NCBI GenBank assembly: GCA_003141555.1
Contig: PLMN01000012.1
Coordinates: forward strand, 79,707 to 118,468
Reading direction: 5' to 3'
Source: Candidatus Aminicenantota bacterium
GTDB lineage: Bacteria > Acidobacteriota > Aminicenantia > Aminicenantales > UBA4085
DNA length: 38,762 nt
Position numbers and translations under genes: made by a program. This document shows, piece by piece, positions 24,194 through 38,762 of the stretch (the stretch's first letter is position 1; every line of letters begins with the position of its first letter). The notes under the pieces are model-generated. The model searched no databases and was not told the DNA's origin. It saw only the letters and a list, made by a program, of their open reading frames with translations.

Positions 24194-24266
<73 letters not shown>

Positions 24267-24269
24267 CTC

Positions 24270-24600
24270 GTTTTCCCCTGATAAATCAACTAAAAAAATT
24301 GCCTTCCCAATAGAACAGGATCCGGGAAACAGCTCAGGGTACCGTAATATATGAGCTTCGAAATATTTTCTCGAGGACCAACGTTTATGTGCAAATTGGG
24401 CAATTGAGACAGGCTTTGCAAGTATAGATTTAGAAGAGCTGAATATATTTTATGCCAAGCGAATTCAAGAGGCGCGGGCGTCTTTCCATTCTTGACATCC
24501 ATCCGAGCGGCGAATATCCTTTTCCGTGAACAGCGGACTGATTCCGGGATTAAGGGGAGGGATCATCGCCTAGCGCGAAAAGCATGATAGCCGTCATTCC
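24270..24600. other. AT-richer gap between tRNA-Thr and the sensor kinase
   Basis: About 330 bases with clearly lower GC than the surroundings. A 70-codon minus-strand frame (24290-24502) lacks a ribosome-binding site and family features and is not called. The only supported element is the promoter at 24492-24520. The composition change right after the tRNA suggests acquired DNA. Confidence 0.5.
24492..24520 (+). promoter_or_regulatory. Putative promoter of the sensor kinase-response regulator pair
   Basis: Perfect TTGACA (24492-24497) and TATCCT (24515-24520) with 17-base spacing. It would give a leader of roughly 75 bases to the GTG at 24601 or 145 bases to the ATG at 24673. Confidence 0.55.
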
Positions 24601-27324
24601 GTGTTTCCCTTCACTTTCGATCAAAGAGCTGCCTCTGCGGCGGGAAGACGGACTCTTACCTCCGGGTTAGTGATGCCCTCCTACCTCTCGATCACCATCG
24701 GCGGCGTCATCATAACGGCGATTCTTGCCGGCTTATCCTGGCGGCACCGGGCTGCGCTCGGGGGGATTCTGCTCGGCTTCCTCATGTCCTTCCTGTTGTT
24801 CTGGTCCGCCACGGCCGCCTTGGAAATCTCGGCGGTCGGGCTTCCCGCCAAGATCTTTTGGTCCAAGCTTCAGTATTTGGGTATCGCCGGGACGCCCCTC
24901 TTTTTTATCCTGACCGTTTTAAGTTTCACCCGGATGAAGTCCTGGCTCCGCTTCCGCCGGGTCGTCTGGTTCTTTCCCGCCCCGGCGCTCGTTTTCTTGC
25001 TCGCCGTGACGAATGACCTCCATCGGCTCATTTGGCGCGAAGTCACTCTCGATCCGCAGAGCGGGCTAGCGGTTTATCATCACGGCCCGGCCTTTTTGGC
25101 TTGGGTTGGCGTCAGCTACCTCTACGTCTTCGTCGCCTCCGTGCTTCTCGTCAAGACCGCGCTCAGCGACAAGCGCTTGGCCAGAATCCAGGCGGTGGCC
25201 TTTCTGCTCGCCGTGCCTTGGCCTTGGGTCGCCAATGGTCTGTATTTTTTCGGCCTCACCCCCCCGGGCGAAGACTATACGGCCTCCGGCTTCGCCGCGA
25301 CCGGATTGTTCCTTCTCTGGGGCATCTACCGCCACCGCCTCTTCCATCTCATCCCGGTTGTTCACGAGGCCGTCATCTCGAGCATGGAGGACGGCCTGAT
25401 CGTCCTAGACACCGGCCACCGGGTCATCGACCTCAATCCTGCCGCGATCGCACTGCTGAGGACAATCGATTCGCCGGTTGCGTCTTTGGCCAAAGGCGAA
25501 TATATGGGAATCAGGGGACAGGACGTTTTCGCCCGCTGGCCCGAATTGGCCGGTCGCTTCATCGCGCTCATCCCGGCCGAGATCGAAACCGCCCTTGGCG
25601 AAGGAATGGGTAAGCGCGTTTTCCAACTTCGCTTCTCGCCCATCCTCGACCGGCGCGGGCGGACGACCAGTTGGTTGGTCATCCTCCACGACATCACCCG
25701 TTTGAAGAGGACCGAGGAGAACCTTCGTCAGCGCGACCGGCTCCTCGGCGGCATCGCCCGGATCGCGAACGAGCTGGTCGCCCAGACCGACCTCGACCGG
25801 GCGCTGGTCGACGTTCTCGGGACCTTCGGAGAAATGACGGACGCGGATCGGGTCTATATCTACCGGAATTCTCGCGACCCTAAGACGAACCGCCGGATCA
25901 TGAGTCATGTCGTCGAATGGACCCGGCCCGATGTGTCCAAACAGATCGATAACCCCGATCTCCATAATCGTTCCTACGACGACGTCCCGGGCATCTTCGA
26001 GGCGTTGAGCCAGGGGCGGCCGTATTCGGGAATCGTCGAGCAACTGGCTGCCTCGTTGCGGAGCTTCTTAGAAGCCCTGGCCATCCAGTCGATTGTTCTC
26101 GTTCCAATTTTTTCCGGTCGCGAATTCTGGGGCTTCATCGGCTTCGATAACTGCCGGACGAAGCGAGCTTGGCCCGAGGCCGAAATTTCGCTCCTCCAGA
26201 CAGGGGCGAGCTCAATCGGCGGAGCGCTAGAAAGGCGGCGAATCGATTCCGCTTTGATCGAGACCCATGCCCTCATATCCGCGCTCCTCGATTCCATCCC
26301 GGACATCGTCTTTTTTAAAGATCTCCAAGGGATATACCTTGGATGCAACCCGGAAATGACCCGTCTGGTCGGACGCTCCAGGGATGAGATCTTGGGCCGG
26401 ACCGATGACGACCTGTTTCCGAAAGACACGGCCGAGGTGTTCAAGGCGAACGATCGGCTCGTCCTGGACGAAAACATTCCCCGGCGCATCGAAGAATCCC
26501 TAGTCTACCCAGACGGGACCCGGGTGATAGTGGAAATGTCCAAGGCCCCCCTCCGGGATAAAAGGGGAAAGACCATCGGCCTTTTGGGGGTCAGCCGGAA
26601 CATCAACGAACGCAAGAAGCTCGAGATCGCCAAAGACGATTTCGTCAACATGGTCTCGCACGAATTGCGGACTCCCCTGACCGCGATCAAGGAGGCTATC
26701 ACCTTGGTGACCGAGGGAGCGGCCGGCCCGATCAACGACGAGCAGCTCGAATTCCTCGCCGCGGCCAAGCGGAATGTCGACCGGCTGGCCCGGCTCATCA
26801 ATGACGTCCTGGATCTCCAGAGGCTTCATTCCGGAAGGATCGAGTTCCACATGGCGCCGAGCGATATCAACGAGGTCCTGCGAGACGTCCACTCCCTGAT
26901 GCTCCCGGTGGCCCGGGACAAAGGCGTCGGCCTCGTCCTCGAGCTCGACCCGACGGTCCCCGAGGCCGTCATCGACAAGGACAAGCTCATCCAAGTCGTG
27001 ACGAACCTCGTCCATAACGCCCTCAAGTTTACCGACGCCGGGACGGTGACATTAGCCTCGGCGCGGGAGAAGGAGGGCGCGGTCCGGGTCACGGTCTCCG
27101 ATACCGGAATAGGCATCAATGAGCAGGAGATCGACAAGCTGTTCAAGGCGTTTAGCCAAGTCTCCCCCGTCGCTAGGCGGAAAAGCGGCAGCACCGGCTT
27201 GGGCCTGGTGATCTCGAAAGAAATCATCGCCGCTCACGGAGGGCGGATATGGGTCGAATCGCGTCCCGGACACGGGAGCAAGTTCCATTTTCTCATTCCT
27301 GAACCGGCGCGAAAGGAGATCTGA
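24601..27324 (+). CDS. Membrane sensor histidine kinase (7TM-PAS-GAF-PAS-HisKA-HATPase)
   Basis: A sensor kinase of up to 907 residues. Residues about 27-245 hold seven hydrophobic helices like the HisKA_7TM sensor region. A PAS domain follows (about 255-370, SSMEDGLIVLDTGHRVIDLN), then a GAF domain (about 385-545), a second PAS (about 560-680, LDSIPDIVFFKDLQGIYLG), the phospho-acceptor H box NMVSHELRTPLTAIKEA, and the ATPase boxes NLVHNALKFTD, DTGIGI and GSTGLGLVISKEI. The start is uncertain: GTG at 24601 or ATG at 24673, the latter giving a cleaner hydrophobic N-terminus; neither has a good ribosome-binding site. The stop overlaps the response regulator start by one base. Ligand unknown. 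Confidence 0.88.
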   Translation: MFPFTFDQRAASAAGRRTLTSGLVMPSYLSITIGGVIITAILAGLSWRHRAALGGILLGFLMSFLLFWSATAALEISAVGLPAKIFWSKLQYLGIAGTPLFFILTVLSFTRMKSWLRFRRVVWFFPAPALVFLLAVTNDLHRLIWREVTLDPQSGLAVYHHGPAFLAWVGVSYLYVFVASVLLVKTALSDKRLARIQAVAFLLAVPWPWVANGLYFFGLTPPGEDYTASGFAATGLFLLWGIYRHRLFHLIPVVHEAVISSMEDGLIVLDTGHRVIDLNPAAIALLRTIDSPVASLAKGEYMGIRGQDVFARWPELAGRFIALIPAEIETALGEGMGKRVFQLRFSPILDRRGRTTSWLVILHDITRLKRTEENLRQRDRLLGGIARIANELVAQTDLDRALVDVLGTFGEMTDADRVYIYRNSRDPKTNRRIMSHVVEWTRPDVSKQIDNPDLHNRSYDDVPGIFEALSQGRPYSGIVEQLAASLRSFLEALAIQSIVLVPIFSGREFWGFIGFDNCRTKRAWPEAEISLLQTGASSIGGALERRRIDSALIETHALISALLDSIPDIVFFKDLQGIYLGCNPEMTRLVGRSRDEILGRTDDDLFPKDTAEVFKANDRLVLDENIPRRIEESLVYPDGTRVIVEMSKAPLRDKRGKTIGLLGVSRNINERKKLEIAKDDFVNMVSHELRTPLTAIKEAITLVTEGAAGPINDEQLEFLAAAKRNVDRLARLINDVLDLQRLHSGRIEFHMAPSDINEVLRDVHSLMLPVARDKGVGLVLELDPTVPEAVIDKDKLIQVVTNLVHNALKFTDAGTVTLASAREKEGAVRVTVSDTGIGINEQEIDKLFKAFSQVSPVARRKSGSTGLGLVISKEIIAAHGGRIWVESRPGHGSKFHFLIPEPARKEI

Positions 27325-27695
27325 TGGCCGCGAAAAAAATCCTAATCGTCGACGATGAGCCCGATGTTCTGTTAGTCCTGGGCAAGAGACTGACGAACGC
27401 CGGCTATAACGTCGTCAAGGCGGCGAGCGGGAAGGAGGGCCTGATCAAAGCGAAAGCCGAGCGCCCCGACCTGATCATCCTGGACATGATGATGCCCGGA
27501 ATGAGCGGCGAAGAAACCGCCCAGGAGCTTAACATCAGCTGCGAAACCCAGTCGATCCCTATCTTATTCTTGACCGCCCTGTACACCAAGCGTGACGAAT
27601 CGACCAAGGGACATGGCGTCGGCGGGCAGACGTTATTCGCCAAGCCGTATGATCCCGAAGAGCTCTTGGCCGAGGTGAAACGGCGGTTGGCCTGA
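27324..27695 (+). CDS. Single-domain response regulator (REC only)
   Basis: A 123-residue CheY-like receiver with no output domain. The acidic pocket is IVDDEPD near residue 8-14, the phospho-acceptor aspartate is in LIILDMMMPGMSG near residue 52, the conserved Thr is in FLTAL and the Lys in FAKPYDP. It starts inside the kinase stop codon (TGATG), so the two are coupled and almost surely partners. As it has no DNA-binding domain it must act by protein contact or phosphotransfer, so it is not an obvious transcription regulator of the nearby microcompartment operon. CheY-type switch residues are not otherwise distinctive. Confidence 0.93.
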   Translation: MAAKKILIVDDEPDVLLVLGKRLTNAGYNVVKAASGKEGLIKAKAERPDLIILDMMMPGMSGEETAQELNISCETQSIPILFLTALYTKRDESTKGHGVGGQTLFAKPYDPEELLAEVKRRLA

Positions 27696-28069
27696 AAGGA
27701 AGCGGCTCCTCTTTTTAGGACCGGTGCAAGCCCCTAGCTCCATAACGGTTTGGGTGCCGGTCTACCCGTTGACTAGTGAGCGGCCCAGCCACCCCAGAGA
27801 AGCTCAGGGAACGCGCCTGGCAGGATGGGCAGGTCACCGTGCTCAGGAGACCGGCGACACCCCCCCACTGAGCTCGCCTGACATGCACCCCGGCTATGTC
27901 CTTGTTGGGGATATTGGCCTCCTACGCCAGCGGCATCGAAGCCTATAATTTTAACTTCGCAGGTGATACACTAAGTGCGGACAGGTCAGCCATGCCAGCA
28001 GATGGATAGTGGACATAATAGGCGTAAGGGGTGTACTACTCGGACGATATAAAAGAAGAGGAGAATTTC
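27696..28069. other. Gap of about 370 bases without a recognisable gene
   Basis: A small hairpin ending in CTCTTTTT (27699-27716) right after the response regulator may be its terminator. The rest has only short frames without protein-like character. A TATAAT at 27944-27949 lacks a well-spaced -35, so no promoter is called. Confidence 0.4.
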
Positions 28070-28588
28070 ATGGAAACGACGCGGAAAAGGTTGTTCTATA
28101 TTATGGTTGGCTTCATATTCGGCCAGCTTCTGATTGGGGCGAAGCCTCTGGCGGCTCAAGGCGATTGTAAACCGTGTTTCGATGCCATGAGCAAGGTCTT
28201 CGACATCCCATCTCACAGTTACGTCACTACCAACATGGGCGGCACAATCCAGACCATGGAGTTGATATACGTCGCCGGCGCTACTTATACGAAGTCCGGG
28301 GGCAAATGGAGTCCCGGCCTGACTTCACTGCAGGAAATGAAGGAGCTTGAACAAAAGAACCGGCAAAATAACAAGGTGACCTGCCGATATCTGGGTGATG
28401 AGCTGGTAAACGGCGAAATGGCGGCGCTATACAGCGTGCACGAAGAAACGCCCAAGAACGGTAAGTCCGATTCTCAGGTATGGATTTCCAAGGCAAAGGG
28501 ATTGCTGCTACGCTCGGAGATTGACTTGGGCGACAAGATGCATATCTCCACGCGCATGGAATACGGAAACGTCAAGGCGCCGATGTAA
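28070..28588 (+). CDS. Small exported protein of unknown function, possibly LolA-like
   Basis: A 172-residue protein with a signal peptide (MRKR-like basic start ETTRKRLFYIMVGFIFGQLL and AAQ cleavage site near residue 30). The mature part begins GDCKPCFDAMSKV, with a CxxC pair, and is rich in beta-strand-like segments (YVAGATYTKSGGKW, TCRYLGDELVNGEMAALYSV, SQVWISKAKGLLLRSEIDLG). This layout recalls LolA-like or outer-membrane-lipoprotein-sorting folds, but I cannot assign a family. The ATG at 28070 is chosen over the GTG at 28031 because GAGGAG precedes it. Base composition is lower in GC than the neighbours, supporting lateral origin. Confidence 0.65.
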   Translation: METTRKRLFYIMVGFIFGQLLIGAKPLAAQGDCKPCFDAMSKVFDIPSHSYVTTNMGGTIQTMELIYVAGATYTKSGGKWSPGLTSLQEMKELEQKNRQNNKVTCRYLGDELVNGEMAALYSVHEETPKNGKSDSQVWISKAKGLLLRSEIDLGDKMHISTRMEYGNVKAPM

Positions 28589-28655
28589 ACTGGCCGTTCG
28601 GGTGACGCAGCCTAACAAGCGCATAAAGCAGGTAATATGTGAGGGCCGTTGGTTC

Positions 28656-28748
28656 GCCGGGACATGGGGTCTGGTGGCCCCTCCGGACTTCAAATCCGGC
28701 ACGGCTTCTGACGAAGGGGCCGGGCGGCTTCGATTCCTCTCGCTGGCT
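28656..28748 (+). tRNA. selC: tRNA-Sec-like gene (anticodon TCA) with mismatched 3' half
   Basis: The 5' part has the diagnostic features of selenocysteine tRNA: an 8-base acceptor 5' strand (28656-28663), a 6-bp D stem with 4-base loop (GGGGTC-TGGT-GGCCCC, 28666-28681), an anticodon arm CCGGA-CTTCAAA-TCCGG with anticodon TCA (28690-28692), and a long variable arm (28700-28727). From the T loop on, however, the sequence is identical to the tRNA-Thr 3' end. It pairs with only the first five acceptor bases, and the T stem (GCGGC against CCTCT) does not form; position 53 is C. It is therefore probably non-functional or chimeric, unless the assembly is wrong here. Confidence 0.6.
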
Positions 28749-28751
28749 CTC
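28729..28751 (+). repeat. Direct repeat copy 2 (att-like, fused to tRNA-Sec body)
   Basis: Identical to 24247-24269 over 23 bases. It forms the T loop, T-stem 3' strand and acceptor 3' strand of the tRNA-Sec-like gene, although it matches the tRNA-Thr fold better. A T-rich stretch follows, as expected after a tRNA gene. Confidence 0.6.
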
Positions 28752-28876
28752 TTATTTCCTTTATCCTCCTTTGTTTTTCTCAGATTATGAACCGCCTGAT
28801 TAAGATCTTGAGCGATATGGGGATTTGAGCCCGAGCGTCGGAAGATTGTCATCGGCGAGGGTGATGATATTCAATG

Positions 28877-29551: not shown

Positions 29552-30844
29552 GTGGAAGATTCCCTTTTTCGAAATGGCGTTGTGGGCTGCGGCGGGGCCG
29601 GGTTTCCCGCGTCGGTCAAGCTCTCCGGCCATGTCGACACGCTGATCGTCAACGCCGCGGAATGCGAGCCGCTTATTCACAAGGACAAGGAATTGCTCGC
29701 CGGTCGCCCGGACGAATTCTTTTCCGGGCTGGCCGAGGCGATGAAGAGGGTGGCTGCCCGGAGGGGGATCATCGCCCTCAAGAAAAAGTACGCGGATCTC
29801 ATCGCGGCCGTCGCCAAACGGTGCCCGGCCGAAGTCACGGTTTTTGCCTTGGATGACGTCTATCCCGCAGGCGATGAATTCGTCCTGGTTTACGAAGTCT
29901 TGGGCCGGATCATCGGACCCGGCGGACTGCCGAAGGACGTGGACGCGGTCGTCCAGAACGTGGAGACGCTGATCAATATCGGCCGCGGCCGGCCGGTGAC
30001 TCGCAAGACCCTGACCGTGGCCGGCCTGGTCCACAAGCCCCTGACCTTGGAAGTGCCCATCGGCACGCCGTTCAAGGATGTCATCGCCGCCGCGGGCGGC
30101 GCCGTCGACCCCGACTCCGGCGTCCTCGTCGGCGGGGCCATGATGGGCCGGCTGACGAACGACCTCTCGGAGCCGGTGACCAAGACGACCGCGGGGCTGA
30201 TCGTCCTGTCGAAGGATCATCCGCTCATCCGGAGGTACGACCGCAGCCCCCAGGCTGTCCGGCGGATTGCGCGGGCCGCCTGTGATCAGTGCACGTTCTG
30301 CACCGAGTTGTGCCCCCGCTACCTCCTGAACCATCCTGTCGAGCCCCACCGCGTCATGCGCAGCTTCGGCCTGGGGATATCCGTCGACGGGGCGGCCCGC
30401 TACGCCAGGTATTGCTCCGGCTGCAGGCTGTGCAGTCTGGGCACCTGTCCCGAAGGCCTCGATCCTTCGGAAATCTGCGGAATCATCAAGAAGGGAGCGG
30501 ACAAGGGAGGCTCTTCTCAAGGCGTCTCCCCGGTCCCAAAGCCCCATCCCTTGCGGTTCGCCCGGCGCATGCCCATGTCGAGGCTCGTCCGCAAGCTCGG
30601 GCTGGAAGGGCTGGATGATCATGCCCCGCTGCGGGACGTCCGGGTCACCCCGCGCCGCGTCCTCATTCCGCTTCGCCAGCACGCGGGCGTCGCGGCCGAA
30701 CCGGTCGTACGGGTCGGGCAGTCCGTGAAAGAAGGGGACTGCATTGGAGACATTCCGAAAGGGAAGCTCGGAGCGCCGGTCCACGCGAGCATCGACGGAA
30801 GAGTCGTGTCGGTCGCGGACGCGGTCGGGATCGAAGCCGCATAA
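29552..30844 (+). CDS. PduS/RnfC-like flavo-iron-sulfur protein of the microcompartment
   Basis: A 430-residue homologue of PduS, the BMC-associated RnfC-like protein thought to carry electrons from NADH through FMN and Fe-S clusters. The N-terminal flavin/NADH fold opens GVVGCGGAGFPASVKL and contains NAAECEPLIHKDKEL. An SLBB domain lies around residues 160-215. Two 4Fe-4S motifs follow: C244, C247, C250, C254 and C288, C291, C294, C299, the second with PduS-like spacing before CP. A barrel-sandwich segment (VKEGDCIGDIPKG) ends the protein. The GTG start gives a slightly short N-terminus without a ribosome-binding site. It is first in the operon, ten bases ahead of the BMC-T gene. It may reoxidise NADH made by the aldehyde dehydrogenase. 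Confidence 0.88.
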   Translation: MEDSLFRNGVVGCGGAGFPASVKLSGHVDTLIVNAAECEPLIHKDKELLAGRPDEFFSGLAEAMKRVAARRGIIALKKKYADLIAAVAKRCPAEVTVFALDDVYPAGDEFVLVYEVLGRIIGPGGLPKDVDAVVQNVETLINIGRGRPVTRKTLTVAGLVHKPLTLEVPIGTPFKDVIAAAGGAVDPDSGVLVGGAMMGRLTNDLSEPVTKTTAGLIVLSKDHPLIRRYDRSPQAVRRIARAACDQCTFCTELCPRYLLNHPVEPHRVMRSFGLGISVDGAARYARYCSGCRLCSLGTCPEGLDPSEICGIIKKGADKGGSSQGVSPVPKPHPLRFARRMPMSRLVRKLGLEGLDDHAPLRDVRVTPRRVLIPLRQHAGVAAEPVVRVGQSVKEGDCIGDIPKGKLGAPVHASIDGRVVSVADAVGIEAA

Positions 30845-30854
30845 GCCGAGAGAG

Positions 30855-31415
30855 ATGGGCAAGATCAACAATATCGGAATCATGGAGTTCAGCTCGCTCG
30901 CCGCCGGCTACCAAGTGGAGGACGCGCTCCTGAAGACGGCTCCCGTGACCATTCTGCTCGCCCGGCCGGTGTGTTCGGGCAAATTCCTGATCGTCGTCTC
31001 GGGCTCCGTGGCGGCGGTCAAGGCGTCCTTGAGCGGCGGCATCCGGGCCGGCGGCGACTCGATCATCGAATACCGGATCATCAACAACCTCCATCCCGCG
31101 GTTTTCCGCGCGCTGGGCCTGTCGGTCGAGCTCGGAAACGTCCTGCCGGGCGCGCTCGGCGTCGTCGAGACTTTCTCGGCGGCCAGCGCCGTGGAAGCCG
31201 CCGACGCGGCCGTCAAGAACGCCGAGATCACGCTTTTCCGGATTCAACTGGCCATGGCCATGGGCGGCAAGGGCCTGGTGCTATTTTGCGGCGCCCTGGG
31301 CGATGTCCGGGCCGGCCTGGACGCGGCGATCACGGCCATGGCCGAATCGGGCATGCTCGCCGGAAGCGCCCTGATTTCCGCACCCTCAGAGGAGCTCCTT
31401 CGGGAGTATATGTAA
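30855..31415 (+). CDS. Tandem-domain BMC shell protein (BMC-T, PduT-like)
   Basis: A 186-residue trimeric shell protein made of two BMC domains (about 5-92 and 99-180). It resembles PduT: IGIMEFSSLAAGYQVEDALL opens domain 1 and LGVVETFSAASAVEAADAAV opens domain 2. PduT trimers bind a 4Fe-4S cluster at the central pore through one cysteine per subunit in the second domain; here that position, by alignment with AACISAAD, is Ala112, with no cysteine nearby. Cys40 (VCSGK) in domain 1 is kept. So it may be an Fe-S-free pore. It is the likely docking partner of the PduS-like protein encoded next to it. Confidence 0.9.
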   Translation: MGKINNIGIMEFSSLAAGYQVEDALLKTAPVTILLARPVCSGKFLIVVSGSVAAVKASLSGGIRAGGDSIIEYRIINNLHPAVFRALGLSVELGNVLPGALGVVETFSAASAVEAADAAVKNAEITLFRIQLAMAMGGKGLVLFCGALGDVRAGLDAAITAMAESGMLAGSALISAPSEELLREYM

Positions 31416-31427
31416 GGAAGGATGACG

Positions 31428-32156
31428 ATGGCTGGGACGTTCGATCGGGGGATCGTCGAGAAGATCGTGCGCGATGTCCTGCGGGATTTTCAAAGGGATC
31501 AAAACGCCTCGGGTGACGATCGGGTGGCCTCGCCGCTCAAGGTCAATGTCTCCGCCAGGCACATCCATCTGTGCCCGGGGGATTTCGAGGCGCTATTCGG
31601 GAAGGGCGCCCGGCCGACTCCCTTTCGGCCGCTCTATCAGGAGGGCCATTTCGCGGCCAATGAAACCGTGACCCTCATCGGTCCCAAGAGCCGGATGATC
31701 ACGGGGCTGCGCCTCCTGGGCCCGTTGCGGGAGCATTCGCAGGTCGAGCTGGCCTTCACCGACGTCATCCTCCTGGGGATAGAAAACGTCCCGGTCCGCA
31801 TGTCGGGAGACCTGGAGGGCACGCCCGGGGCGTGGATCATGGGCCCGGCCGGAATGCTGGAATTGGAGCAGGGCGTGATCCGGGCGGCTTTGCACGTCCA
31901 TATGAACGAGCGCGATGCGGCCCGCATGGGAGTCGTCCACAGGGGCCTGATGGAGCTCAGGGTCGAGGGCGACGCGCCCGTCGTCTTCGAGCGCGTTCAC
32001 GTCCGTGTGGACCCGACCTTCAAGCTCGAGGTCCACATGGATACGGATGAGGCGAACGCCTGCCATCTGGCGGCGGCCAAGCACGTGTCCCTGACCGTGC
32101 CCAAAGGAAAATCCGACATCCCCGGCGATGTCATCAACAAAGGAGTGCATTCATGA
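31428..32156 (+). CDS. pduL: Phosphotransacylase PduL
   Basis: Converts acyl-CoA and phosphate to acyl phosphate and CoA, recycling CoA inside the shell. About 242 residues. The first ten to twenty residues (TFDRGIVEKIVRDVLRDF) form an amphipathic helix of encapsulation-peptide type. The two PduL repeats carry the zinc-binding HxH motifs VSARHIHL and ALHVHMNERDA, the conserved PVRMSGDLEGTPG, and HMDTDEANACH. The second HxH is preceded by Leu where Arg is usual. Of two ATGs, 31428 has the better spacing to AGGAAGG (31415-31421) than 31422, which abuts it. Its stop overlaps the next BMC-H start. Confidence 0.93.
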   Translation: MAGTFDRGIVEKIVRDVLRDFQRDQNASGDDRVASPLKVNVSARHIHLCPGDFEALFGKGARPTPFRPLYQEGHFAANETVTLIGPKSRMITGLRLLGPLREHSQVELAFTDVILLGIENVPVRMSGDLEGTPGAWIMGPAGMLELEQGVIRAALHVHMNERDAARMGVVHRGLMELRVEGDAPVVFERVHVRVDPTFKLEVHMDTDEANACHLAAAKHVSLTVPKGKSDIPGDVINKGVHS

Positions 32157-32440
32157 AAAAGGCACTGGGTATGATCGAGACGATCGGATTCGTTCCGATG
32201 CTGGAGGCCACCGACACGGCCTGCAAGGCGGCCCATGTGGTTTTTCTCCACTGGGAGCCCGCCGGTTCGGGCATGGTGACGGCGTTCTTCGAGGGTGAAG
32301 TCGCGGCCGTCAAGGCCGCCGTCGACGCCGGCGCCGAAGCCGCGGCGAAGCTGGGAAAGGTCGTTGCCGCGCAGGTGATCCCGAATCCTTACGAGGATCT
32401 CGAAGCGTTCACCGGGAAGCCCAAGCCCCGGACCGCCTGA
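32153..32440 (+). CDS. Hexameric BMC shell protein (BMC-H) 1
   Basis: A 95-residue single BMC-domain protein (PduA/EutM family): ALGMIETIGFVPMLEATDTACKAA at the start, GEVAAVKAAVDAGAEAA in the middle and VIPNPYEDLEA near the end. The pore loop is EPAGSG, with a proline and an acidic residue in place of the usual KI/KV before GSG. The C-terminal tail is Lys/Pro-rich. The start overlaps the pduL stop (ATGA). Confidence 0.95.
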   Translation: MKKALGMIETIGFVPMLEATDTACKAAHVVFLHWEPAGSGMVTAFFEGEVAAVKAAVDAGAEAAAKLGKVVAAQVIPNPYEDLEAFTGKPKPRTA

Positions 32441-32488
32441 GGCGGGCCGGAAGCGTTGAATCGGCAAGGGCAGAAAGAGAGGATTGAA

Positions 32489-32770
32489 ATGAGCAATCTA
32501 GCCATCGGCATGCTGGAGACGAGAGGCAGGGTCGGACTGGTCACGGCCGCGGACGCCATGTGCAAGGCCGCCGACGTGATCCTAATCAGGACCGTCGAAA
32601 TCGGCGGCGGCTACGTCACCACCCTGGTCAAGGGCGAAGTCGGGAACGTCAAGGCTGCGGTTGAAGCCGGCCTGCTGACCCTGAAGGCCGTCGGGGCCGA
32701 TATCGTCGCCGCGCACGTGATCCCGCAGCCGCACGATTCCACCCTCGGACTCGTGGACAGGAAGTCCTGA
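32489..32770 (+). CDS. Hexameric BMC shell protein (BMC-H) 2
   Basis: A 93-residue BMC-H: LAIGMLETRGRVGLVTAADAMCKAA opens it, and GEVGNVKAAVEAGLLTL and HVIPQPHDSTL follow. The pore loop reads VEIGGG, so the central serine of GSG is glycine and the preceding lysine is glutamate, which should give a wider, less basic pore. An in-frame TTG at 32456 is rejected because the ATG has AGAGAGG seven bases before it. Confidence 0.95.
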   Translation: MSNLAIGMLETRGRVGLVTAADAMCKAADVILIRTVEIGGGYVTTLVKGEVGNVKAAVEAGLLTLKAVGADIVAAHVIPQPHDSTLGLVDRKS

Positions 32771-32783
32771 GCCAGCGGTTGCC

Positions 32784-33956
32784 ATGAAGATTCTCGTGCC
32801 GAACATCGGCAGCACGTCGTTCAAGTACCGCCTCATCGATATGGACACCGAGGCCGTGCTCGCCGAAGGAAAAATCGAGCGCATCGGCCAGGCGGGGGGC
32901 GACTGCCCCGATTATCCGACGGCTATCGGCCGCTGCCTGGATTCGCTTATCGGCGCGGGAAAACCCTTGGCCGCCCTGACCGAGCTTTCAGCCGTGGGCT
33001 TCAAGGCCGTTCACGCCCGCGGAATTACGGGCGCCGTGAAGGTCACTCCGGACGTGCTGGCGGCCATGGAAGAATACGCGTTTCTGCTGCCGGCCCATAA
33101 CCCCCCGTATGTCGCGGCCATGAAGGCCTTCGCCGCGGCCGCGCCCCAGGTCCCGTCCGTGGCCTTGTTCGAAACGTCCTTCTTCATGAATATGCCCAAA
33201 GCGGCCGCTATCTACGCGGTGCCGTGGTCGTGGGGAGAAGAGGAAGGGATCCGCCGTTTCGGCTTTCACGGCGCCAGCCATCGCTACGCCAGCGATCGCG
33301 TGCGGAGCCTGATCGGCCGGGCCGACATCACCCACATCTCCTGCCATCTGGGCGGCAGCTCGAGCGTGGCCGCCGTCAGAAACGGCCAGGGCGTCGATAC
33401 GAGCTTCGGCATGACGCCCCAGAGCGGCATTCCCCAGAACAACCGGGTCGGCGACATCGACGTTTTCGCCGTTCTGTACTTGATGAAAAAATACGGGCTC
33501 AGTCCCGAGGCCATGGCCGGGAAGCTTTCCCGGGAGTCCGGGCTGGCGGGGATATCGGGAATGAGCGGGGACGTCCGCGATCTCGAAGCCGCCGCGGCGC
33601 AGGGAAACGAGCGGGCCCGGCTCGCTCTCGAGGCCTACGTCTACTCCGTTCGCCGCTATGTGGGGGCGTTCCTGATTGAGCTCGGCTCGGCGGACGCGAT
33701 CACGTTTTCCGGAGGCATCGGCGAGCATTCGGCCGAGATCAGGCGCCGGGTCCTCCGGGGCCTCGAGAATTTCGGCATCCTCCTCGACGACCGGCGGAAC
33801 CGCGAGGCGAAGAAAACCGCGCGGATCTCCGCCGACGCCTCGAAAACGGGAATCTGGATCGTCGAGACCAACGAAGAAATCGTCGTGGCCCGGGCCGCGG
33901 CCGAAATCGTCAAAAAAAGCAGCTTGGGAAAATCGGCGGGACGCCCGGCGTCCTGA
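32784..33956 (+). CDS. ackA: Acetate/propionate-type kinase, divergent (BMC-associated)
   Basis: Makes ATP from acyl phosphate and ADP. A 390-residue ASKHA-fold kinase with the AckA landmarks: N7 in NIGSTSFK, FHGASHRYAS (about 161-170), SCHLGGSSS (H188), NRVGDID and TNEEIVVA near the C-terminus. Two residues known to matter in AckA differ: the Arg of GHRxVHGG is Lys74 and the catalytic Asp of VFDTAFH is Glu130 (LFETSFF). Both changes are conservative, so activity on a slightly different acyl phosphate is possible. It lies between two BMC-H genes and probably works with PduL. No encapsulation peptide is apparent, so it may act outside the shell. Confidence 0.9.
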   Translation: MKILVPNIGSTSFKYRLIDMDTEAVLAEGKIERIGQAGGDCPDYPTAIGRCLDSLIGAGKPLAALTELSAVGFKAVHARGITGAVKVTPDVLAAMEEYAFLLPAHNPPYVAAMKAFAAAAPQVPSVALFETSFFMNMPKAAAIYAVPWSWGEEEGIRRFGFHGASHRYASDRVRSLIGRADITHISCHLGGSSSVAAVRNGQGVDTSFGMTPQSGIPQNNRVGDIDVFAVLYLMKKYGLSPEAMAGKLSRESGLAGISGMSGDVRDLEAAAAQGNERARLALEAYVYSVRRYVGAFLIELGSADAITFSGGIGEHSAEIRRRVLRGLENFGILLDDRRNREAKKTARISADASKTGIWIVETNEEIVVARAAAEIVKKSSLGKSAGRPAS

Positions 33957-33974
33957 GACAAAGGAGTCATAACC

Positions 33975-34250
33975 ATGGTGAAACCGGCGATTGGAATGAT
34001 CGAAACGAGGGGCCTCACCGCGCTCGTGATGGCGACCGACGCGATGCTCAAATCGGCGGCCGTGGAATTCATGGGCTGGAAAAAAGTCGGCAGCGGCATG
34101 TGCTCCTGCTACATCCAGGGCGACGTGGCCGCCGTGAGGACCGCGCTGGACGCGGGCGTGGCCATCGCCCGGGAAGTGGGCCAGATCGTCTCCTCCCAGG
34201 TCCTGCCCCGGCCGCACGAAGAAATCCAGAGCATGGTCCCGAAACGCTGA
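33975..34250 (+). CDS. Hexameric BMC shell protein (BMC-H) 3, PduA-like
   Basis: A 91-residue BMC-H closest to canonical PduA: AIGMIETRGLTALVMATDAMLKSA at the start, pore loop KKVGSG, GDVAAVRTALDAGVAIA, and QVLPRPHEEIQSMVP at the end. An AAAGGAG ribosome-binding site precedes the ATG. It is probably the main facet hexamer. Two cysteines (MCSCYIQ) sit next to the pore loop. Confidence 0.95.
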   Translation: MVKPAIGMIETRGLTALVMATDAMLKSAAVEFMGWKKVGSGMCSCYIQGDVAAVRTALDAGVAIAREVGQIVSSQVLPRPHEEIQSMVPKR

Positions 34251-34272
34251 TCGGGCCGACAGCGGAGAAGCC

Positions 34273-34569
34273 ATGTATCTCGCCAAAGTGATGGGGACGA
34301 TCGTCGCTTCGCAGAAATACCCGAAGTTCCAGGGCATGAAGCTCCTACTCATCCAGCCCTACGTCAGCGCCGACAAGGCGCTCGTCCCGCAGGGGAGCAG
34401 CATCGTCGCGGTCGACTGCGTGACCTGCGGCGTCGGCGATCTGGTCATGTTCACCCAGGGAAGCTCGGCTCGGATGACGGAGTGCACCAAGGACAGCCCC
34501 GTCGACGCCGTGATCATCGGCATCGTCGATTCCGTCGAGGTCAACGGCAAAGCCCTGAAAAACCCCTAA
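34273..34569 (+). CDS. BMC vertex protein (BMC-P, EutN/CcmL family) 1
   Basis: A 98-residue pentamer-forming vertex protein. Family features: MYLAKVMGTIVASQKYPKF at the start, GMKLLLIQP, VAVDCVTCGVGDLVMFTQGSSAR in the middle and VDAVIIGIVDSV at the end. A GGAGAAG ribosome-binding site is present. First of three BMC-P genes in the operon. Confidence 0.94.
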   Translation: MYLAKVMGTIVASQKYPKFQGMKLLLIQPYVSADKALVPQGSSIVAVDCVTCGVGDLVMFTQGSSARMTECTKDSPVDAVIIGIVDSVEVNGKALKNP

Positions 34570-34593
34570 TCACGGAAGGGAGTACGTTTCGAC

Positions 34594-36063
34594 ATGATGA
34601 GTTCCTCTCCTCCTCATATTCCTCCGTACCGCGACCTCGATATCTCGGCCATCGTCGCCGAGGTCACGCGCCGGCTGTCCGCCGAGCGGCCCGCCGAAGG
34701 CGCCGGGGATAACTCCACCCGCGACGCCGTCCGGAGCGCCGGGTCGGACGGCGTCTTTCCGACCGTCGACGACGCCGTGGCGGCCGCGCTCCGGGCCCAG
34801 CCGAAGCTCGCCGCGCTATCGCTCGACCAACGGGGCGTCATCGTCGACATCATCAAGACGTATTGCCTCGAAAACGCGGCAGAGCTGGCCCGCATGGAAT
34901 ACCGGGAGACCCGCATCGGCCGCGAAGACCACAAGATCCAGAAGCTGACCATCATGAACAAGGTGCTCGGCGTCGAGGCCCTGAGGACGAAAGTCCGGGT
35001 GGGAGACGCCGGAACGGAATTCATCGCGGCCGCGCCGTTCGGTGTGATCGGAATGGTCACTCCGGCGACGCACAGCGTCCCGACCATGGCCGGCAACGCC
35101 ATCAATGTCCTGGCGGCCGGGAACACGGCCGTTTTTTCGCCCCATCCGGCAGCCTCTCGCTGTCTGACCCACGCCCTGCGCCAGATCAACCAGCGGATCC
35201 GGGCCAAGACCGGGCTGGAGAACCTGATCACGGTCATGGCCAAGCCGTCCATCGAGGCGGCCGGCGAGCTCTTCAAGCATCCGGATATCGCCCTCCTCAC
35301 GATCACCGGCGGCCCGGGCGTGGTCAAGGCGGCCATGAAAGCGGGCAAGAGGGTAATCGCCGCGGCGCCGGGCAATCCGCCCGTCGTCGTCGACGAGACC
35401 GCGGATATCCCGGCGGCCGTGAAGAACATCATTTTCGGGGCTTCGTTCGACAACAACCTCCTCTGTCTCGGCGACAAGGAAGTGTTCGTCGTCGAGGCGA
35501 TCGCGGACGAGTTCCTGGCGGCCATGCGCCGGGCGGGCGCGGTCGAGCTCACCCCCGCCCAAATCGAATGCCTGACCCGGGCCGCGTTCGTCCCCGACAA
35601 GGCCTCCGGCCTCCGGGTCGTGAACCGCGAATACATCGGCCAGAGCGCGGCCTTCCTGGGCCGGGCGGCCGGCGTGGTCGTGCCCGACAGCGTCGACCTG
35701 CTGTTCGGCGTGACGGACGAAAGCCATATTTTCGTCCAGGAAGAACAGATGATGCCGTTCCTGCCGATCGTCCGGGTCAAAGACGTCGACGCCGCGATCG
35801 CGGCCGCCCTGAGGGCCGAGCACGGATACCACCACTCCGCCCTCATCCACACCCGGAACGACGAGACGGCCCGGCGGATGGCCCGGATCATGAACACGAC
35901 CCTCTTCATCCGAAACGCGGCCTGCACCGCCGCGCTCGGCGTGGACGGACCGGGGTACCTGAGCTACAGCATCGCCACGGCCACCGGCGAGGGCGTGACG
36001 ACGCCGCTGACCTTCACCCGCCAGCGGCAGATGATCATCGGCGGCCGATACGACTATTTTTAA
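34594..36063 (+). CDS. CoA-acylating aldehyde dehydrogenase (PduP/EutE type) with N-terminal encapsulation peptide
   Basis: Oxidises an aldehyde to acyl-CoA with NAD+ inside the shell. A 489-residue protein. Residues about 13-30 (RDLDISAIVAEVTRRLSAE) form an amphipathic helix of encapsulation-peptide type, followed by a flexible Gly/Ser/Asp linker to residue 50. The dehydrogenase body has VTPATHSVPTMAGNAINVLA and the catalytic cysteine in DNNLLCLGDKEV (C291), with a PNP/ITGGPGVVKAAM cofactor loop near 238-250. GGAAGGGAG precedes tandem ATGs (34594, 34597). The aldehyde (lactaldehyde, acetaldehyde or other) is not determined by sequence. Confidence 0.94.
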   Translation: MMSSSPPHIPPYRDLDISAIVAEVTRRLSAERPAEGAGDNSTRDAVRSAGSDGVFPTVDDAVAAALRAQPKLAALSLDQRGVIVDIIKTYCLENAAELARMEYRETRIGREDHKIQKLTIMNKVLGVEALRTKVRVGDAGTEFIAAAPFGVIGMVTPATHSVPTMAGNAINVLAAGNTAVFSPHPAASRCLTHALRQINQRIRAKTGLENLITVMAKPSIEAAGELFKHPDIALLTITGGPGVVKAAMKAGKRVIAAAPGNPPVVVDETADIPAAVKNIIFGASFDNNLLCLGDKEVFVVEAIADEFLAAMRRAGAVELTPAQIECLTRAAFVPDKASGLRVVNREYIGQSAAFLGRAAGVVVPDSVDLLFGVTDESHIFVQEEQMMPFLPIVRVKDVDAAIAAALRAEHGYHHSALIHTRNDETARRMARIMNTTLFIRNAACTAALGVDGPGYLSYSIATATGEGVTTPLTFTRQRQMIIGGRYDYF

Positions 36064-36085
36064 GGGCAAGCAAGAAAGAGAATCC

Positions 36086-36376
36086 ATGTATCTGGCGAGG
36101 ATCGAGGGATCGGCGGTGACGACGATCAGTCACAAGAGCCTCCGGGGGCGCAAGCTGCTCATCGCCAGGCGCTGCGAGCCCGACGGCCGGCTGGCCCGGG
36201 AGCCGATCGTGGCCCTCGACGCCGTCGGGGCCGGACTGGGAGATCTCGTCTTGATCTCGACGGACGGCGAGCTTGCCCGGATTCTGACGGGCATGCGGAC
36301 GGCGCCGGTGCGCCTCACGGCCGTGGGCATCGTCGATCACGTGACGGCCGCCGGAGTGTCCGGAGAAGAGAAATGA
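36086..36376 (+). CDS. BMC vertex protein (BMC-P) 2
   Basis: A 96-residue EutN/CcmL-family protein: MYLARIEGSAVTTISHKSLRG at the start, IVALDAVGAGLGDLVLIS in the middle and LTAVGIVDHVTA at the end. More basic in the loop after strand 2 (ARRCEPDGRLARE) than the first BMC-P. Its stop overlaps the start of the next BMC-P (ATGA). Confidence 0.94.
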   Translation: MYLARIEGSAVTTISHKSLRGRKLLIARRCEPDGRLAREPIVALDAVGAGLGDLVLISTDGELARILTGMRTAPVRLTAVGIVDHVTAAGVSGEEK

Positions 36377-36666
36377 GATTGGGCATCGTCAAGGGGACCG
36401 TGGTCTTGAGCCGGGGGCTCAAGAGCCTGGCGGGAACCCGCTATCTCATCGTCGAGCCCGTAACGGCGGAAAACCTGAAGGCCGGCAATTTGAAGGGGGG
36501 CGGCCGGGAGGTCGTCGCCGCCGATCATCTGGCTCCCGGACAAGGCCAGATGGTCTGCTTCGAGGAGGGGCGCGAAGCCTGCAGCCCCTGGCTTCCGGCC
36601 AGCGTTCCGGTCGACGTCTATATCAGCGGCATCATCGATTCGGTCACCTACGAACCCACGGAATGA
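36373..36666 (+). CDS. BMC vertex protein (BMC-P) 3
   Basis: A 97-residue, more divergent BMC-P: MRLGIVKGTVVLSRGLKSLAG at the start, VVAADHLAPGQGQMVCFEEG in the middle and VDVYISGIIDSVTYE at the end. The GxGD motif of typical members is GQGQ here. The loop after strand 2 is longer (VTAENLKAGNLKGGGRE). Translationally coupled to the previous gene. Confidence 0.92.
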   Translation: MRLGIVKGTVVLSRGLKSLAGTRYLIVEPVTAENLKAGNLKGGGREVVAADHLAPGQGQMVCFEEGREACSPWLPASVPVDVYISGIIDSVTYEPTE

Positions 36667-36670
36667 AACC

Positions 36671-37789
36671 ATGAAACAGCTCCATCTGCGCGGCACGAAC
36701 GTGATTTCGGGTCCGGTCGTCGACCAGGCGGCCCGCGATGGCTACGCGGAGATCGTCGTGGACGAAGACGCGGTCATCACCTCCGTCGCCCTGGATTCCG
36801 CCGCGGTGGCGGGTGTCCGTATCATTCGCGAGGGCGGCCGCAAGGTCGGCGCTCCGGCCGGGGCCTTCTCTTTCTCCGGCGGATCGGGGAGCCCCGAGGC
36901 CCTGTTCTCATCCGCCGAGGCGCGGGCCCTTAAGGACGAGATCGTGGCGACCGGGAAAAAGCTCTGGATGCGCTCCTACGTCGACGGCAACGGCGGCAAC
37001 ATTTCGTGCCGGATCGGAGAGAAATACGTCCTGTGCACGCCGACCCTCGTCAGCAAGGGGGATCTCACGCCGGACGACATCTGCCTGGTCGATCTCGACG
37101 GCAATCAGCTCGCGGGCCGCAAGAAAAAGACCAGTGAAATCCTCCTCCATCTCGAGATCATGAAAGCCCAGCCCAAGGCCAGGGCTTGCGTCCACGCCCA
37201 TCCCCCCCACGCCACGGCCTACGCCATCACGGGCATGGTGCCGCCCGTGGGCGTCATTCCCGAGGCCGAGATCTTCGTCGGCTACGCCGCCTTCGCCCCG
37301 TACGGCACGCCGGGCACGAAAGAGATCTCCCAGAAAGTCGTGGGACTCGTCTCCGACCACAATGCGATTCTGTTGGGCAACCACGGTGTCGTCTGCTGGG
37401 CCGATTCGCCCCTGCATGCCGAATGGTGCATCGAGATCCTCGAGACCTACTGCCAGACTCTCATTATCGCCGCGGGGCTGAGCGTCCCCATCAAAATGAT
37501 TCCCTCGGACAAATCCGAAGCCCTGCTCGACGTCAAGAGGAAGCTGAACCTTCCCGATCCCCGCTTGAGCGGCCGGGAGTGCACTCTGGCCGACATGCCG
37601 GACACTCTGACCAGCATCACGGTCTGTCCGGGCGCCTGCTCCGGCGGCACCGGGCCGTGCGGGCTCCAGGGGTCGACGAGCTGCCCCCGGTCGGGCGGCG
37701 GAGCGCCGGCTCCCGGTCCCGAGAACAATGAGACGGAAGTTCTGATCGGCCGGATCGTCGACGAGGTCATGAAGACGCTGAAGAAATAG
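36671..37789 (+). CDS. Class II (zinc) aldolase, extended, with C-terminal encapsulation peptide
   Basis: A 372-residue relative of fuculose-1-phosphate and rhamnulose-1-phosphate aldolases, whose usual length is about 215-275. The core (about 85-275) has the zinc ligands H175 and H177 in CVHAHPPHAT and H238 in GNHGV, with the likely catalytic E156 in SEILLHLEI and GNGGNISCRI for phosphate binding. It has an extra N-terminal segment (1-80) without recognised family, a cysteine cluster near the C-terminus (C319, C323, C330, C338) and a final amphipathic helix (ETEVLIGRIVDEVMKTLKK) of encapsulation-peptide type. It would supply the aldehyde to the dehydrogenase. It is last in the operon, four bases after the BMC-P stop. 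Confidence 0.9.
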   Translation: MKQLHLRGTNVISGPVVDQAARDGYAEIVVDEDAVITSVALDSAAVAGVRIIREGGRKVGAPAGAFSFSGGSGSPEALFSSAEARALKDEIVATGKKLWMRSYVDGNGGNISCRIGEKYVLCTPTLVSKGDLTPDDICLVDLDGNQLAGRKKKTSEILLHLEIMKAQPKARACVHAHPPHATAYAITGMVPPVGVIPEAEIFVGYAAFAPYGTPGTKEISQKVVGLVSDHNAILLGNHGVVCWADSPLHAEWCIEILETYCQTLIIAAGLSVPIKMIPSDKSEALLDVKRKLNLPDPRLSGRECTLADMPDTLTSITVCPGACSGGTGPCGLQGSTSCPRSGGGAPAPGPENNETEVLIGRIVDEVMKTLKK

Positions 37790-37863
37790 CCGGCGGCGTC
37801 GGGGAAGATCCCGGGCTTGGCGATGCCCTCGTCGAAACGGTCGCTCGTCTCCTGAACCGCTAG
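37790..37863 (+). other. Out-of-frame extension encoding a second encapsulation-peptide-like helix
   Basis: Directly after the aldolase TAG, the -1 frame stays open and reads IAGGVGEDPGLGDALVE then TVARLLNR and a stop at 37861-37863. The last 15 residues form an amphipathic helix like those that target cargo to BMCs. This frame is open only from 37732 and has no ATG, GTG or TTG, so it can be reached only by a frameshift near 37783-37789. Its stop and the phosphoketolase stop share the palindrome CTAG (37860-37863). Confidence 0.5.
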
Positions 37864-38762
37864 ATCGGGCTCCACGTCCAATGGCGGATTTCGGGCAAAT
37901 CCTCGCCGTATTTGTCGATGTACTGCCTGTGCTCGATCAGCTTGTCCTTGAGCTGCTGCTTCAGGTAGACGCCCTTGTCCCCGGTCTGGGGCAGGCGGTC
38001 GATGACGTCCATCACGAGGTGGAAGCGGTCCAGATCGTTCAGGACCGTCATGTCGAAGGGCGTGGTGATGGTGCCCTCTTCCTTGTAGCCGTGAACGTGG
38101 ATATTGTCGTGGTTGGCCCGGCGGTAGGTCAGCCGGTGGATGAGCGACGGATAAGCATGGAAGGCGAAGATGACGGGCTTGTCCCGGGTGAAGAGCTCGT
38201 CGAAATCCGGATCGCTCAAGCCGTGCGGGTGCTCGGTTTGGGGCTGCAGCTTCATGAGGTCGACGACGTTGATCACCCGGATTTTCAGGTCGGGCAGGCG
38301 CTCGCGCAAAATGGAGACGGCGGCGAGCGTTTCCAGCGTGGGCACGTCGCCGCAGCAGGCCATGACGACGTCGGGCGTGACATTCTGGTCATTGCTGGCC
38401 CATCGCCAGATGCCGATGCCTTCGGTGCAGTGCTTGACCGCCGCGTCCATCGTCAGCCACTGCGGCGCCGGGTGCTTGCCCGCGACCACGACGTTGACGT
38501 AATGGCGGCTGCGGAGGCAGTGGTCCATCACCGAGAGCAGGCAATTGGCGTCCGGCGGAAGGTAAACCCGCACGATCTCGGCCTTCTTGTTCGCGACGAG
38601 GTCGATGAACCCGGGATCCTGGTGGCTGAAGCCGTTGTGGTCCTGGCGCCAGACATGCGAGGCCAGGAGGTAATTGAGGGAGGCGATCTTCCGCCGCCAG
38701 GGCAGGCGCGACGTGACCTTGAGCCACTTGGCGTGCTGATTGAACATCGAATCGACGATGTG
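37860..38762 (-). CDS. Phosphoketolase, C-terminal part (truncated by window edge)
   Basis: Cleaves xylulose-5-phosphate or fructose-6-phosphate with phosphate to acetyl phosphate plus glyceraldehyde-3-phosphate or erythrose-4-phosphate, using thiamine diphosphate. About 300 C-terminal residues are present; the gene extends beyond the right edge (full proteins are about 790 residues). Typical XFP sequence: [82 protein letters not shown] and [17 protein letters not shown]. It converges on the microcompartment operon, and the stop codons of the two sides overlap at CTAG. Its product, acetyl phosphate, is also the substrate of the neighbouring acetate kinase. Confidence 0.95.

Follow-up and report, generated by a model that had tools for sequence, protein, structure and literature searches.

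A chimeric selC/tRNA-Thr sequence, very probably a pseudogene, in a genome of Candidatus Aminicenantota

The tRNA-Sec gene selC is an integration site of genomic islands in enterobacteria. Islands regenerate and displace their tRNA targets (PMC4383910), and there is good documentation of displaced tRNA fragments being accepted by automated tRNA finders (PMC9897764). Extra tRNA-Sec copies were predicted in many genomes by Secmarker; G73 is reported as essential for tRNA-Sec, and predictions with another base at this position may in part be pseudogenes (PMC5330540).

The window analysed here is a stretch of 38,762 nucleotides (C4:79707-118468) of a genome of 3.79 Mb in 33 contigs. Positions 28656-28751 of the window, termed the chimera in the following, comprise a 75-nt selC-like body, followed by the last 23 bases of the tRNA-Thr(CGU) gene located 4.5 kb upstream. 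A near-intact selC 5' part is joined within TTCGATTCC to a tRNA-Thr 3' end and the left end of an integrative element. The features of this part of the window are as follows.

24194-24267, plus strand: intact tRNA-Thr (CGT) in its ancestral place beside smc, the donor-like copy of the 3' end (ARAGORN; Rfam, 74.1 bits)
24247-24269, plus strand: 23-bp repeat, copy 1, from the T loop to the tRNA-Thr 3' end plus 2-3 bases
24268-28655, plus strand: interval of 4.4 kb between tRNA-Thr and the chimera (ORFs and Pfam)
24601-27324: histidine kinase
27324-27695: response regulator
28031-28588: hypothetical secreted protein
28655-28749: tRNA-SeC (TCA) call (ARAGORN)
28656-28662, plus strand: GCCGGGA at the start of the chimera, probably composed of upstream flank and a selC acceptor strand without GGG (alignment with relatives)
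28663-28737, plus strand: selC-derived body with D arm, UCA anticodon (28690-28692), long variable arm and damaged 5' side of the T stem (75 nt, of which 4 differ from the intact selC of the same genome; Rfam RF01852, 50.1 bits)
28729-28751, plus strand: 23-bp repeat, copy 2, tRNA-Thr T loop and 3' end
28729-28737: switch zone common to selC and tRNA-Thr, TTCGATTCC
28752-28783, plus strand: L-end1 remnant (element left end) to the right of the chimera (93.8% identity over 32 bp to sister species G001, 92.6% over 27 bp to contig C2 of the same genome)

As in Islander-type islands and miscalled fragments (PMC9897764; PMC4383910), a partial tRNA 3' end is duplicated beside an element end, and the product passes tRNA finders; unlike in the fragments described there, that of the chimera is fused to the body of another tRNA gene, and the switch is located in the T loop, not at the anticodon-arm cut usual in this family. 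Like the non-G73 tRNA-Sec predictions of Secmarker that are read as pseudogenes, the chimera is an additional copy in which the discriminator base is wrong and acceptor pairs are disrupted, with one good gene present elsewhere; unlike the human tRNA-Sec pseudogene, which is attributed to retrotransposition, it has a 3' end from another tRNA (PMC5330540). The fusion of two different tRNA genes is the less usual part, and the explanation is otherwise ordinary.

The tRNA-Sec hallmarks named in a preliminary description of the locus (6-bp D stem, UCA anticodon, long variable arm) are present in the Rfam alignment, and the body is about 94% identical to the selC on contig C31 (4 of 75 positions differ; two of these lie in the 5' strand of the T stem). 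The D arm and the anticodon arm are free of mutations, which indicates that decay of the chimera is slight or recent. T stem and acceptor were confirmed to be poorly paired: in the Rfam register, five of eight acceptor pairs and three of five T-stem pairs form (two of the latter are G-U), compared to 7/8 and 5/5 in the intact selC of the same genome. The covariance model gave no normal full-length fold; the match to RF01852 (tRNA-Sec) runs end to end with broken pairs, and its 50.1 bits narrowly pass the cut-off of 47. With the same model, 51.6 bits were obtained for the tRNA-Ser(TGA) of this genome and 73.3 bits for its intact selC; hence, the score of the chimera is no evidence of function.

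The 8-base acceptor strand that had been listed as a further hallmark, GCCGGGAC, does exist as a stretch of sequence, but it is probably not an original acceptor strand. The selC starts of relatives read CGCCGGGAGGGCATGG or GGCCGGGAGGGCATGG, with the gene beginning at GGGAGGGC; in the alignment, the start of the chimera looks like the relatives' stretch with GGG deleted and the upstream GCC pulled into register. A compensatory repair of the acceptor, by pairing of GCCGG with the Thr end, was also considered and rejected as unneeded: in relatives, ordinary selC genes are directly preceded by CGCC or GGCC, one deletion of GGG is enough to explain the acceptor, and the changes in the T stem restore no pairing.

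The intact anticodon, D arm and variable arm, and the five acceptor pairs that form with the Thr 3' strand, would also suit a functional tRNA that combines a selC body with an acceptor of the Thr type and decodes UGA or acts as a regulator. We regard this as scarcely credible: the T stem is broken, with the G53-C61 pair lost by a change of G53 to C, base 73 is T where intact selC copies have the reportedly essential G (PMC5330540), no promoter-like site was found, and in relatives ordinary selC copies already carry CGCCGG or GGCCGG at their start, so that the pairing needs no selection. By the Secmarker criteria (PMC5330540), the chimera is a tRNA-Sec pseudogene; we consider it as very probably a pseudogene, for which, judged by its sequence, neither charging nor use in translation is expected.

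The search for an intact selenocysteine (Sec) system was positive for all of its parts, on contig C31: selC (48296-48388), selB (51869-53761), selD (54007-54930) and selA (55107-56483), all on one strand. The earlier suggestion of a selC decaying after loss of Sec use is thereby refuted, and the selC copy in the window is redundant beside this complete, separate system. The Sec trait of the genome rests on these four genes; in a selenoprotein search with Fdh-alpha, no in-frame stop was found in Fdh-alpha and no selenoprotein gene was identified. The selC gene follows selB by about 7-12 bp in relatives G013, G003 and G007, whereas the distance is 3.5 kb in the genome of the window, which indicates that its selC was moved or displaced. 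The named relatives that share this selC are mostly Candidatus Aminicenantes MAGs.

Two further selC copies were observed in other genomes. The one in relative G004 (contig C26; locus L066, 7203-7297, minus strand) is of full length with well-paired stems and G73, but its anticodon is UAA, in a CTTAAAA loop, and its D loop is altered; several more selC copies or halves are found in G004 (C38, C203, C26, C139). The other (L100, 4088-4222, minus strand), in a MAG labelled Deltaproteobacteria (UBA8936), resembles the selC of Aminicenantes and has a 3' flank of the same kind, which reflects either a mislabelled bin or a transfer.

That selC, tRNA-Thr and other tRNA genes serve as integration sites in this Candidatus Aminicenantes family is strongly supported: displaced 3' halves of selC, tRNA-Thr, tRNA-Ala and others are located beside element ends in several genomes. 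In the genome of the window, tRNA-Thr 3' halves are located on contigs C2 and C11, the latter of which also carries a selC 3' half, and in G003, G007 and G013 halves are found a few kb from the full copies. A common sequence ending in ..GACCACTG..CGTATT..GATCGA.., which we read as the putative right end of an element, lies before both Thr halves of the window genome and before one in the sister species G001. In G003, a full tRNA-Thr and a Thr half lie 10.8 kb apart, and the ORF beside the half looks, by eye, like a putative tyrosine recombinase. The sequence on the right flank of the chimera also follows the tRNA-Ala on C2 and a tRNA-Thr half in G001. On C2, this left end carries repeated TTTAAGCC and TGTCAAA motifs and follows tRNA-Ala at 115.06 kb; an integrase gene (PF00589, 102 bits) is located 36 kb further on, at 150.6 kb, and after it come a TGTCAAA motif and an exact tRNA-Ala 3' half of 45 bp. 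By its anatomy, the segment of about 36 kb looks like a classical, putative tRNA-integrated element.

Other arrangements of this kind were observed. The C2 segment (about 115064-151335; loci L016 and L132) is an apparently complete element in tRNA-Ala(GGC), with the integrase at its right end and a tRNA-Thr half 1.1 kb inside its left end. Near the end of C11 (L015, 9130-9742), a full tRNA-Asp with repeat motifs, a Thr 3' half and, 130 bp on, a selC 3' half occupy about 600 bp in total; such a tandem of halves from different tRNAs is odd for ordinary tandem islands. In G001 (C87; L080, 7259-7515), a full tRNA-Thr is followed by a spacer of about 130 bp of the type found on C11 and by a tRNA-Leu 3' half. 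Contig C16 of the window genome (L131, 6330-7175) holds an integrase gene, a putative tRNA-Lys 3' half and a left end of the kind seen after the intact C31 selC. The repeat GACCTCATCCCTGAAAAATGGTCC has many copies near these element ends (C2, C16 and C27 of the window genome and several relatives).

The start of the match to the full gene was measured for 12 tRNA halves (five Thr, five selC, one Ala, one Leu), all of which begin between -12 and +4 nt relative to the first position of the anticodon loop. The Thr part of the chimera begins at +22, in the T loop. As an attachment-site remnant, the chimera has the duplicated tRNA 3' end and the adjoining element end, and lacks a bounding integrase and a cut in the anticodon arm. 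The use of selC as an attachment site in Aminicenantes is like that in enterobacteria; unlike there, the crossover is inferred to lie in the anticodon arm, and several selC copies persist per genome.

The last 23 bases of the chimera are, as was noticed early, exactly a tRNA-Thr 3' end: the repeat TTCGATTCCTCTCGCTGGCTCTC occurs at 24247-24269 and 28729-28751, and no further copy was found in the window even at three mismatches (none is expected from shuffles). Its upstream copy belongs to the tRNA-Thr beside smc, a neighbour also found in G003 and G007. An exact tRNA 3'-end direct repeat at both ends, with an intact tRNA on the left, is the textbook picture of an island, and the 4.48 kb between the copies might be read as a small island in tRNA-Thr with the selC body as its right end. 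We find this very doubtful, since no integrase was found among the ORFs of 24268-28728 (ORFs and Pfam), the other tRNA-Thr halves in these genomes are 38-48 nt long in comparison to 20-23, and this reading gives no reason why an island should end in most of a tRNA gene.

A misassembly at the 23-base repeat, i.e. a wrong assembly or a chimeric read joining two loci, had also been proposed. The genome is a draft (33 contigs, 2.3% contamination), and tRNA copies may trouble its assembly, as on C11, which ends 133 bp past its selC half. However, the selC body differs from that on C31 by four substitutions and the acceptor changes and has no counterpart among the assembly's other selC sequences, and the right flank is different from those of the other three Thr ends. 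With unique DNA to either side of the join and only 23 bp in common, a misassembly is improbable.

The preliminary description had further proposed recombination by an integrase at the T loop. The context of integrative elements is strongly supported, as described above; the T-loop join itself is probably not the product of an integrase, considering that the other halves are cut in the anticodon arm. In its specific form, which is the main rival explanation, an attP with a tRNA-Thr 3' end and L-end1 would have entered a copy of selC through a T-loop strand exchange, and the left junction would remain from an element that later eroded. The order selC 5' part, Thr 3' end, L-end1 is exactly that of a left junction, and crossover in a T loop is on record elsewhere, e.g. 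for phage Ms6 integrating into tRNA-Ala (PMC1762012). The DNA to the right of the chimera would fit as well: a microcompartment-type, accessory operon (window 29552-38000) is about 82% identical to DNA of relative G008, where it stands in a different neighbourhood, and had no comparable DNA match in 12 other relatives (1 of 13 searched positive). Direct integration is nevertheless unlikely, as none of the 12 measured halves starts in the T loop and neither a selC 3' half nor an integrase domain was found on contig C4.

The T-loop switch of the chimera, set against 12 of 12 halves cut in the anticodon arm, favours recombination of a selC copy with a displaced tRNA-Thr half rather than direct integration, and we consider it probable that the chimeric pseudogene originated in this way. 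A spare copy of selC and, in the same orientation, a displaced tRNA-Thr half carrying its element end would have come together, and recombination or deletion between identical T-loop blocks would have fused the two. The identity of these blocks is 9 bp at present and may have been 11 bp (GGTTCGATTCC) before a later mutation; the fusion product would later have lost GGG in the acceptor strand, and G53. Against this account, the match to the element left end at the chimera extends over only 32 bp, neither an integrase nor a complete element borders it now, and the unmutated D and anticodon arms show little decay. The reciprocal product (Thr 5' part with selC 3' part) was not found, and the parental array, a full selC upstream of a Thr half, was not seen in the window genome.

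Integrative elements of this family might also swap ends and tRNA halves, so that arrays form within a few hundred bases and the target tRNA changes; the chimera would then be a swap that took place in the T loop and not at the usual position. The arrays of tRNA-Asp, Thr half and selC half on C11 and of tRNA-Thr and Leu half on C87 of G001 exemplify this reading, which we consider quite unlikely for the chimera.

The chimera pattern was found in none of the other genomes (1 of 94 genomes of the order), no match to the selC 3' body was found in viral contigs, and no synteny across the join was found in relatives. The kinase pair to the left of the chimera had no close DNA match in the relatives searched.

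Under the favoured origin, by recombination of a selC copy with a displaced tRNA-Thr half, a plausible second tRNA-Sec that passes ARAGORN and the Rfam cut-off can be a dead recombination product, and the case cautions against inferring a loss of Sec use, or a new suppressor tRNA, from such a sequence. It also draws attention to a lineage whose selC integrative elements have repeatedly hit, duplicated and moved away from selB, and which allows the shuffling of tRNA sites between elements to be studied.
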